From the IMG/VR virus record IMGVR_UViG_3300044946_000057, positions 1 to 47,542 of that record: a stretch of 47,542 bases of DNA; one strand, 5' to 3'. The first letter of the stretch is position 1. Each line of letters starts with the position of its first letter. The notes under the pieces are model-generated. The model ran no database searches. It saw nothing but the letters and a program-made list of their open reading frames with translations, and was not told the DNA's origin. The DNA is from a virus. Positions 24,488 to 27,131 of this stretch are shown here, piece after piece. Position numbers and translations under genes: made by a program.

Positions 24488-24614
24488 GCGAGATGAACGC
24501 GAACGCAAGGCCAAACAAGGTATTCAACGCTTGGAGTTGTGGCTGCATCCATGCGACGTTCCACGAGTGAAAGCCTACGCCGAACGACTAGTGAAGAAGC
24601 GAGCAAAGTCATGA
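24465..24614 (+). CDS. Small basic DNA-binding-like protein, 49 aa
   Basis: ATG at 24465 lies inside the end of the previous gene, with AAGGAAA upstream, and its TGA overlaps the integrase ATG. The N-terminus is very basic (MKSAAQRKRDERERKAKQG), then a strand ELWLHP and a helix VPRVKAYAERLV, a ribbon-helix-helix-like layout. It may be an excisionase or repressor acting with integrase. Confidence 0.6.
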   Translation: MKSAAQRKRDERERKAKQGIQRLELWLHPCDVPRVKAYAERLVKKRAKS

Positions 24615-25432
24615 CCACACTGAATGAACTATTTGACCGCTACGAGCGCGACCACATCCCCAAGATCGCGCCACGGTCGCAGCGTGATTATCGCCGGCAC
24701 CTCGATAAGCTGCGCTCCGAGTTCGGCATCTTCGAGCCGTCAGATATCAAGCCGCGTGATGTGGGTCGCCACCTCGACGTACCGAAGGGCCGCATCCACC
24801 GCAACAAGCAAATCATGGTGTTGGCACACGTTTTCTCGCTCGCCATTGGGCGCTGGTTTATCGACGGCGTGACCGTCAACCCCTGCGTCAACGTAGCGCG
24901 TAACGAGAGCCATCCACGCGACCGCTACGTGGCCGATGAAGAGTACCTAGCTGTCTACCGCCACGCGCCGCTGCGCGTCCAGATGGCCATGGACCTCGCG
25001 CTCCTGACAGGCCAACGGCAGGGCGACATACTTCGCTTGAAGTGGGAGCAGATATCCAGCAACGGAATCTTCTTCCAGGCCAGCAAGACCGGCAAGCGCA
25101 TCATCATTGAGCCGTCAACCTATCTCGGGTACGTGCTGGCTCGCGCTAAGCGTGAGATCAACCGAGGCCCGCAGGAATACGTCATCGAGACGCGCAACGG
25201 CAAGCCGTACACCGGAGACGGTTTCCGCGGTAAGTGGCGACGGGCGATGCGCATGGCTATGCGGGCCAAGGCGCTGCAGTCCACTTTCACGTTTCACGAT
25301 CTGCGCGCGAAGAACATCAGCGATGACCCGTCATTGCAGACGGCCAGTGAACGCGCAATGCACAGCGGGCAGGGACTGACGCGCTCGGTCTACGATCGCG
25401 GTGTGCGTCGGGTGAAACCTCTTTATGGATAA
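24611..25432 (+). CDS. int: Tyrosine recombinase (integrase)
   Basis: 273 aa from ATG 24611, coupled to the upstream stop. A SAM-like core-binding domain covers about 1-95. The catalytic set is visible: R136 in TGQRQGD, H229 and R232 in FTFHDLRAKN, H251 in MHSGQG and nucleophile Y261 in SVYDRG. There is little room for an arm-binding domain. It shows the phage can integrate. attP was not located with certainty; the tRNA gene at 22518 and the gap after this gene are candidates. Confidence 0.92.
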   Translation: MTTLNELFDRYERDHIPKIAPRSQRDYRRHLDKLRSEFGIFEPSDIKPRDVGRHLDVPKGRIHRNKQIMVLAHVFSLAIGRWFIDGVTVNPCVNVARNESHPRDRYVADEEYLAVYRHAPLRVQMAMDLALLTGQRQGDILRLKWEQISSNGIFFQASKTGKRIIIEPSTYLGYVLARAKREINRGPQEYVIETRNGKPYTGDGFRGKWRRAMRMAMRAKALQSTFTFHDLRAKNISDDPSLQTASERAMHSGQGLTRSVYDRGVRRVKPLYG

Positions 25433-25564: not shown

Positions 25565-25774
25565 ATGAGCGATCAAGTTGGTACGTTGCCAGACCACACT
25601 GAAAAGCACTTCGATGCGATCGATGCCGGATTCTTCAGCGGCGATACCTTTCACAACGAAGACGCGCTCAAGCGCTTCGAGTGGTACGTCGCTCGCTGGC
25701 AACGCGAGGTCGTGTCCATTCGAGAATTGATGGCCGAGTGGGCGCAGTCAGAGACCGACGGAGGAGCGGAGTAA
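25565..25774 (+). CDS. Hypothetical acidic protein, 69 aa
   Basis: ATG at 25565 with AAGGCAGG upstream. Helical and acidic (FEWYVARWQREVVSIRELMAE). Its stop is directly followed by the TTG start of the cytosine methyltransferase, and its 3' end holds the shared ribosome site. Function unknown. Confidence 0.6.
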   Translation: MSDQVGTLPDHTEKHFDAIDAGFFSGDTFHNEDALKRFEWYVARWQREVVSIRELMAEWAQSETDGGAE

Positions 25775-26521
25775 TTGCGTGTCCTCGACCTTTTCAGCGG
25801 AATCGGCGGATTCAGTCTCGGACTTGAGCGGGCAGGCATGCGAACCGTCCAGTTCGTCGAGAGCGACACCTTCTGCCAAGCCGTCCTCCGGAGACACTGG
25901 CCAGATGTTCCCTGCCACGACGACGTACGAACCTTTGCAGGCGTCCCTTGCGACGTTATCTGCGGAGGATTCCCATGCCAAGACATCAGCGATGCTGGTC
26001 CTCGCATTGGAATTGAGGGAGAACGATCCGGTCTGTGGTCGTCCTTTGCACGCCTCATTGGCCAGCTACGACCACGATTCGTCATCGTGGAGAATGTTGC
26101 AGCGCTCCTTGATCGAGGTATCGGCACCGTTTTGGGAGACCTTTCCAGAATCGGGTATGACGCGGAATGGTCAATTGTATCGGCGTGCTCCGTGGGCGCT
26201 CCACACATGCGACGACGGGTGTTCATTGTGGCCTACCCCGACAGCGAGCATGGACGGCCGCGGGTTTGGTATACCGCTCCACGAGCGTACAGGACGCTAC
26301 AAGCTCTCGACGGTCCGCAGGGTGCACGCGCTGGTTGGAGAGCACGGCTGGCGAATCCATCCGAACTTTACGGAGGCGCTGATGGGGTTCCATACGGGAT
26401 GGAGCGAAATCATGCCATTGGAAACTCTCTCGTCCCGCAAATCGTTCAAGCGATCGGGGAAGCGATCATGAGAGCAGCATCCGTTACCAATCAAGCCGAC
26501 GGAGTAGATGAGCATGGCTGA
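25775..26521 (+). CDS. DNA (cytosine-5) methyltransferase
   Basis: 248 aa from TTG 25775. All main C5-methyltransferase motifs are present: motif I DLFSGIGGFSLGLERAG (5-21), motif IV GGFPCQDIS with catalytic Cys68, motif VI VENVA (105-109), motif VIII RRRVFIVA (146-153) and motif X AIGNSLVPQIVQAIG (214-228). The target recognition part is short. It probably protects phage DNA from host restriction. Nearly the whole gene also reads as a second protein in the +1 frame. Confidence 0.9.
   Translation: MRVLDLFSGIGGFSLGLERAGMRTVQFVESDTFCQAVLRRHWPDVPCHDDVRTFAGVPCDVICGGFPCQDISDAGPRIGIEGERSGLWSSFARLIGQLRPRFVIVENVAALLDRGIGTVLGDLSRIGYDAEWSIVSACSVGAPHMRRRVFIVAYPDSEHGRPRVWYTAPRAYRTLQALDGPQGARAGWRARLANPSELYGGADGVPYGMERNHAIGNSLVPQIVQAIGEAIMRAASVTNQADGVDEHG
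25779..26471 (+). CDS. Protein encoded in +1 frame inside the cytosine methyltransferase gene
   Basis: 230 aa from GTG 25779, seven bases after GGAG, a better spacing than the methyltransferase TTG has. The sequence is not random: SSWRMLQRSL (102-111), FPESGMTRNGQLY (122-134), WPTPTAS (151-157) and HPNFTEALMGFHTGW (194-208) are motifs of a protein family I know from phage genomes next to cytosine methyltransferases. The N-terminal 100 residues are Ser/Thr rich and probably disordered. Function unknown; a partner or specificity factor of the methyltransferase is a guess. Confidence 0.65.
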   Translation: MSSTFSAESADSVSDLSGQACEPSSSSRATPSAKPSSGDTGQMFPATTTYEPLQASLATLSAEDSHAKTSAMLVLALELRENDPVCGRPLHASLASYDHDSSSWRMLQRSLIEVSAPFWETFPESGMTRNGQLYRRAPWALHTCDDGCSLWPTPTASMDGRGFGIPLHERTGRYKLSTVRRVHALVGEHGWRIHPNFTEALMGFHTGWSEIMPLETLSSRKSFKRSGKRS

Positions 26522-27131
26522 GTTGGAGAAGTCGCCGCTAATCATTACGCGTGGCGACGGCGTGCCGCTGCCGGACCAGCGCGCCGCTCTGAATGAGTTC
26601 AAGCGCCAATGCTTGAAGCCGTCCGATCCGATGTTTGACACTGCAGGCATCAGCAATGAAAACGACGAGTGGTATACGCCGTCGTGGATGTTCGCGGCTC
26701 TTGGTGTCGAGTTCGACTTGGACCCTTGTAGTCCTGGGGTGCCTCCATCGAGCGTGCCTGCCAAGCAGCACCTCACCAAAGCCGATAACGGGCTCTCCTA
26801 CCGGTGGGACGGCTCGGTGTGGCTCAACCCTCCATTCTCGAGCAAACAGGCTTGGTATCAGCGCCTGGTGGCGCACGGCAACGGTATAGCTCTCATGCCG
26901 GCACGCACCGAGACGCTAGACCTGCAGGACTACATGCAGCATGCCAGCGCTCTCCTGTTCCTGCGCAGCAGGATCTACTTCGAGCGCGGCTCTAAACCAG
27001 GAGGCAGCGGGACCGGTGGCGTAACGACCTGTCCGCCGTTCGGGATTGTGCTGTGCTCCTATGGCGAGCGTATGGCCGAAGTGCTGCTGCAGAGCAAACT
27101 CTTGGGCGTCCGGGCGCGCGTGCATGTATGA
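26508..27131 (+). CDS. Phage DNA N6-adenine methyltransferase (Dam family)
   Basis: 207 aa from ATG 26508, starting inside the last codons of the cytosine methyltransferase. NDEWYTP (52-58), FDLDPCSPG (69-77) and the catalytic WLNPPFS (105-111) are hallmarks of the phage Dam family, as is HGNGIALMPARTET further on. It methylates adenine, most likely for anti-restriction or packaging control. Two modification enzymes of different chemistry are thus encoded in tandem. Confidence 0.88.
   Translation: MSMAELEKSPLIITRGDGVPLPDQRAALNEFKRQCLKPSDPMFDTAGISNENDEWYTPSWMFAALGVEFDLDPCSPGVPPSSVPAKQHLTKADNGLSYRWDGSVWLNPPFSSKQAWYQRLVAHGNGIALMPARTETLDLQDYMQHASALLFLRSRIYFERGSKPGGSGTGGVTTCPPFGIVLCSYGERMAEVLLQSKLLGVRARVHV

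Follow-up and report, generated by a model that had tools for sequence, protein, structure and literature searches.

To our knowledge, dsDNA phages rarely contain long same-strand overlaps with two old frames, each under selection. Among two-subunit C5-cytosine DNA methyltransferases, M.EcoHK31I has its small-subunit gene nested within the large-subunit gene in a different frame. In M.EcoHK31I (YGGCCR), the large subunit bears motifs I-VIII and X together with the predicted recognition domain, and the small subunit bears only motif IX (PMC3404938). In M.AquI (CYCGRG), motifs I-VIII are carried by the alpha subunit, and the recognition region and motifs IX-X by the beta subunit (PMC3404938). 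M.HhaI and the other single-chain C5 methyltransferases (PF00145) consist of one chain read in one frame.

The stretch analysed here is a whole virus record (IMGVR_UViG_3300044946_000057; 47.5 kb, 47,542 nucleotides), hereafter called the window, and represents a temperate phage with an integrase gene (Table 1) and with portal and terminase genes elsewhere. A stretch of 750 bases in it, as in hundreds of its relatives among phages and prophages, has two overlapping frames whose products would be the catalytic half of one DNA-methylating enzyme and the half predicted to recognize DNA. We assign a probability of about 0.83 to the reading that this locus would encode a heterodimeric C5-cytosine DNA methyltransferase, with its alpha and beta subunits nested in two frames and working like M.EcoHK31I or M.AquI.

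Compared at the sequence level only, the window locus is similar to M.EcoHK31I in having motifs I-VIII and X on the large polypeptide and motif IX on the small one. Unlike M.EcoHK31I, it has a constrained recognition region in the +1 frame, whereas the frame-0 linker drifts (43% vs 14% of residues, see below); moreover, it is viral, and no restriction enzyme is seen beside it. It shares with M.AquI an alpha carrying motifs I-VIII and a beta carrying the recognition region and motif IX, but its motif X lies in alpha rather than in beta and its ORFs are nested rather than offset. M.AquI is very similar to the offset split forms of the phages Firecracker, Samy and Orcanus, where motifs IX and X are both on the second subunit, which is not the case in the window. 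As the placement of the recognition region and of motif X differs from those in M.EcoHK31I and M.AquI, the locus would be a variant working like them and a member of neither.

Two nested reading frames in a temperate phage

The initial annotation had described a C5 methyltransferase in a TTG-started frame (here alpha, frame 0) and a conserved protein of 230 codons in a GTG-started +1 frame (here beta), and both its coordinates and its motifs are exact (Table 1). It had also taken frame 0 for a full C5 methyltransferase, which does not hold. The match of alpha to PF00145 (3e-43) covers profile positions 1-165 of 324 only, and motifs I, IV (PCQ), VI (ENV), VIII and X are present in frame 0, whereas the recognition region and motif IX are not in the same chain, motif IX being found in the +1 frame. 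Alpha also matches phrog_363 at 1.8e-75, and beta matches phrog_1008 at 1.3e-21. The motif IX segment of the window beta, HPNFTEALMGFHTGW, deviates from the consensus.

Table 1. Features of the two-frame locus and its surroundings in the window
Feature	Position	Strand	Remarks
Integrase	24539-25432		
69-aa ORF	25565-25774	+	no family assigned
Ribosome-binding region, purine-rich, GGAGGAGCGGAG	25760-25771	+	common to both starts; read from sequence
Alpha ORF	25775-26521	+	frame 0, 248 aa from TTG; of the C5 methyltransferase motifs, I-VIII and X present, IX absent
Beta ORF	25779-26471	+	frame +1, 230 aa from GTG; carries an N-terminal block overprinted on alpha, then the recognition region and motif IX	
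Motif I, DLFSGIGG	25787-25810	+	frame 0
Motif IV, GGFPCQ	25964-25981	+	frame 0; includes the catalytic Cys
Beta conserved N-terminal block, SSSWRMLQ ... FPESGMTRNGQLY	26079-26180	+	frame +1, over alpha motifs VI-VII
Motif VI, ENV	26090-26107	+	frame 0
Motif VIII, RRRVFIVA	26210-26233	+	frame 0
Beta WPTPTAS and variable recognition region	26229-26357	+	frame +1; frame-0 reading of these bases poorly conserved
Beta motif-IX-like segment, HPNFTEALMGFHTGW	26358-26402	+	frame +1
Motif X, GNSLVPQ	26420-26440	+	frame 0
Dam-type N6-adenine methyltransferase	26508-27131	+	PF05869, phrog_111

The TTG and GTG starts lie 4 bases apart behind one ribosome-binding region, in line with the single ribosome site proposed initially: GGAGGAGCGGAG precedes both, its GGAGGAG (25760-25766) suiting the TTG and its GGAG (25768-25771) the GTG. 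A better spacing of the +1 start, as proposed initially, is possible, each start having a stretch that suits it. Among 99 genes with the +1 frame open from the start, the codon found four bases past the frame-0 start is ATG in 63, GTG in 5 and TTG in 1, an arrangement of the form NTGAATG; at the site of the window's GTG, its close relatives carry ATG. In most other genes the +1 frame opens internally: 111 of the 137 examined have an ATG some 130-190 bases in, and a Shine-Dalgarno-like stretch, for example GGAGGT in the frame-0 'W-P-E-V-P' codons, precedes roughly half of these ATGs.

Both neighboring genes touch alpha. The TAA of the 69-aa ORF upstream abuts the alpha start (TAATTG), a junction that suggests translational coupling. 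Downstream, the Dam-type gene begins inside the 3' end of alpha, so that three coding frames meet at 26508-26521.

Selection on the two frames

Homologues were sampled through the methyltransferase frame, and through the +1 frame in viral and genome contigs, with the best 80 loci per search, and all frequencies refer to the loci fetched. A tblastn search with the +1 protein matched 50 phage records. Matches occur in phages of Mycobacterium, Synechococcus, Sulfitobacter, Bacteroides, Salmonella, Pseudomonas and others, and in the fetched loci each match shares its strand with a methyltransferase and runs one base ahead of it, at about 29-40% identity.

Shuffling the synonymous codons of the window gene yields a +1 opening of the same length in 1% of cases. 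The +1 readings of 249 non-redundant genes were scored on a profile against a null of 20 shuffles per gene, which kept the frame-0 protein and the codon usage. The window +1 frame scores 258 bits (null mean 98, maximum 114), and the +1 score exceeds all 20 own shuffles in 248 of the 249 genes; for genes sampled through the methyltransferase frame, this is the case in 112 of 113. Medians range from 169 to 230 bits across the sampling routes, against null means of 70-98, and the +2 frame of the 249 genes scores about 0 on the profile. PF00145 genes in twelve of the bacterial genomes sampled served as a control: family members present a +1 signal in 12/12 cases, only slight in L329, and the 18 ordinary C5 methyltransferases tested have no clear +1 constraint (17 at the null, and L340 marginal with 12 bits). 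Judged by these scores, the +1 frame is under strong protein-level selection.

Codon positions tell the two frames apart, frame-0 third positions being +1 second positions. Third-position changes outnumber first-position changes 3.28-fold in the first 25 codons (85 moderately diverged pairs); this ratio falls to 1.39 in columns 96-158, to 0.80 in the linker between motifs VIII and X and to 0.46 in columns 195-215, and recovers to 2.33 at the end. Between the window and four relatives, this linker has 64 first- vs 19 third-position changes (P 4e-7, the four comparisons sharing the window and thus not being fully independent), and 14% of the residues differ in the +1 protein vs 43% in the methyltransferase frame. 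The codon-position and residue data together show that selection maintains the +1 reading throughout this linker, with frame 0 drifting along as a passenger. Among deeply diverged sequences, the +1 residue often exceeds its frame-0 counterpart in conservation over columns 99-134 and 195-215, for example with M at 95% against D at 51%, P at 94% against P at 49% and E at 93% against R at 83%, this frame-0 R being encoded almost exclusively by CGA or AGA.

It might be argued that there is no second protein, and that methyltransferase conservation and codon bias account by themselves for an open and conserved +1 frame, since shuffled genes still reach about 70-98 bits on the +1 profile. This is extremely improbable, and refuted at the level of sequence, as 248 of 249 genes lie above all their shuffles, the linker and motif IX region has fewer changes at third than at first positions, and other C5 methyltransferases are devoid of the +1 signal. 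Frame-specific selection, a check proposed with the initial annotation, is not restricted to the methyltransferase frame, and the almost complete dual coding of two conserved proteins claimed there receives strong support from both the synonymous shuffles and the codon-position rates. These analyses show a same-strand overlapping pair, with both frames under protein-level selection.

Probable homology of the +1 protein to the recognition region and motif IX

The LPTP/WPTP and NPxWVEWLMGFPxGW segments of beta correspond to the recognition region and motif IX. Against M.HhaI, a frame-0 profile covers motifs I-VIII and gives a weak alignment at motif X and none at motif IX. A trans-frame profile, which follows frame 0 to motif VIII and then the +1 frame, aligns with HhaI 12-289 at 5e-39, most of the score coming from motifs I-VIII, and places 'klnpefvewlmgfpvgw' over HhaI 'KLHPRECARVMGYPDSY', which is motif IX; the frame-0 motifs I-VIII and the +1 motif IX therefore both align with M.HhaI. 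As the two frames of this profile were joined artificially, it tests homology and is silent on a natural frameshift. The beta profile matches the C-parts of split and fused relatives with an E of 2e-30, in an alignment that contains some misplaced N-part columns, and the matched segment ends in motif IX; a C-part profile in turn aligns weakly with canonical motifs IX and X (E 0.005). Direct profile comparison of beta with canonical methyltransferases (hhalign) found nothing, and the AlphaFold2 model of beta alone is of low confidence (pLDDT 60), with an empty Foldseek search against the PDB. The motif IX homology consequently rests on the split and fused intermediates and on the trans-frame profile. 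By this homology, beta would be the missing recognition-region and motif IX part of the enzyme of alpha.

A programmed frameshift after motif VIII could join frame 0 to the +1 frame in one chain, beta then not being separately initiated. The conserved 'VAYP' codons past motif VIII run straight into the +1 WPTP segment, and the joined chain aligns with M.HhaI through motif IX. We nevertheless consider it very unlikely, because the +1 frame is constrained far upstream of such a site (columns 96-158), its start codons are conserved, and the nested form keeps motif X in frame 0, so that the joined chain would lose it.

The initial annotation had placed the +1 protein in a family found in phage genomes near cytosine methyltransferases. 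This family appears to be phrog_1008, which would in turn be the beta subunit described here; the idea of a separate neighbor protein did not stand, homology pointing instead to the missing part of the same enzyme. The label of phrog_1008, 'DNA methyltransferase', is silent on a role in recognition or motif IX and on the overlap with the catalytic gene. The annotation of Samy gp50, the second ORF of an offset pair, relates it to this family.

The WPTP/LPTP unit is repeated several times in longer genes (L012, L013, L034, L060, L214 and others), which would suit a multi-module recognition domain. Twelve apparent cases of standalone +1 genes turned out to be extra WPTP-repeat domains within the same gene, and the downstream CDS of Samy and Orcanus, also considered as standalone, are parts of +1 ORFs overlapping the upstream gene too.

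Other arrangements in relatives

In an offset split arrangement (Firecracker gp6/gp5, Heather, Camerico, Samy, Orcanus and L268), frame 0 ends just past motif VIII, and the +1 ORF extends from the overlap via LPTP repeats and EWMMGxPxGW to motif X. In other relatives everything is in one frame (ShiLan gp70, prophi104-2 gp17, viral loci L357-L372 and L401). The search for +1 homologues outside frame-shifted methyltransferase DNA, suggested at the outset, thus found them in the single-chain ShiLan gp70 and prophi104-2 gp17, and also in the downstream parts of the second ORFs of Samy, Orcanus and Firecracker. The model of one single-chain relative (L360) has a pTM of 0.69 with a poorly modelled recognition region, and Foldseek matches it to M.HhaI over its length (3e-12); the single-frame relatives are predicted to have a C5-methyltransferase fold. 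L403, at first classed as fused from motif X alone, is read out as nested.

Some annotations and sequences in this set deserve mention. The annotated second methylase CDS of Samy (L355), Orcanus (L352) and Heather (L345) is too short; the +1 ORF continues upstream into the first gene. A stop codon interrupts frame 0 in L169 (near 2494), L287 (near 2668) and L232 (near 3290), perhaps through recoding, decay or an error in the sequence, and the +1 frame remains open across this stop in L169 and L287. In a Lentzea genome (L246:2495-4309) the +1 ORF continues without a stop into a DUF3631 protein, for 605 aa in total, and long +1 read-ons are also present in L259 and L125.

The N-terminal block of beta occurs only where the frames overlap, and we know of no counterpart in the known two-subunit enzymes. 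In fused genes (L353, L354, L357-L372 and L401), a +1 ORF with SSW.../SGMTRSG motifs lies over motifs VI-VIII, and the block scores above the shuffles in 19/19 cases, its motifs being partly decayed in some. This persistence could be due to slow decay or to a separate function.

The same block, without counterpart in canonical C5 methyltransferases and above shuffles over all 19 fused genes, would also fit a +1 product independent of the enzyme (e.g. a regulator, or an anti-restriction or anti-methyltransferase factor), alpha then being a complete small methyltransferase, and beta alone has no recognizable fold. We regard this as unlikely, since this would leave frame 0 without motif IX and without a constrained recognition domain, the +1 ORF of split relatives also bears motif X, and fused relatives hold the same segment inside the enzyme chain.

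A broader scenario is possible, and we put it forward tentatively: a widespread viral C5 family, with core and recognition subunit in two frames that share almost all their DNA and with single-chain, offset and fully nested forms coexisting, in which the beta N-terminal block (SSWKT...SGMMRNG) was born by overprinting and has a function of its own. The latter part is suggested by the block being kept over fused genes.

Proposed function and distribution

In a nested heterodimeric methyltransferase, alpha would contribute motif X and the core for SAM binding and catalysis (motifs I-VIII), and beta the recognition region and motif IX. The two subunits would be initiated independently from one mRNA at neighboring starts and would assemble into an active enzyme, with DNA recognition fulfilled by beta. 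From what is known of the family, this enzyme would methylate the phage DNA, probably against host restriction, alongside the product of the adjacent Dam-type gene.

The hosts of the phages and prophages concerned belong to the Actinobacteria, Proteobacteria, Cyanobacteria, Bacteroidetes and Firmicutes, and a few archaeal contigs also carry the locus. No published account of the alpha/beta overlap was found in the literature searched, most subscription journals and preprints lying outside it, and the pair is not described in the passages searched of the papers on GeneTack, PRFect, virus overlaps and phage-methylase HNH.

Both frames of the overlap described here appear to make parts of one enzyme. 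If true, this would explain the shifting annotation of the locus (methyltransferase, hypothetical protein or two methylase fragments), and the recognition domain would have to be read in the other frame before predicting specificity. Moreover, the coexistence of single-chain, offset and nested forms makes the origin of a gene overlap directly testable.
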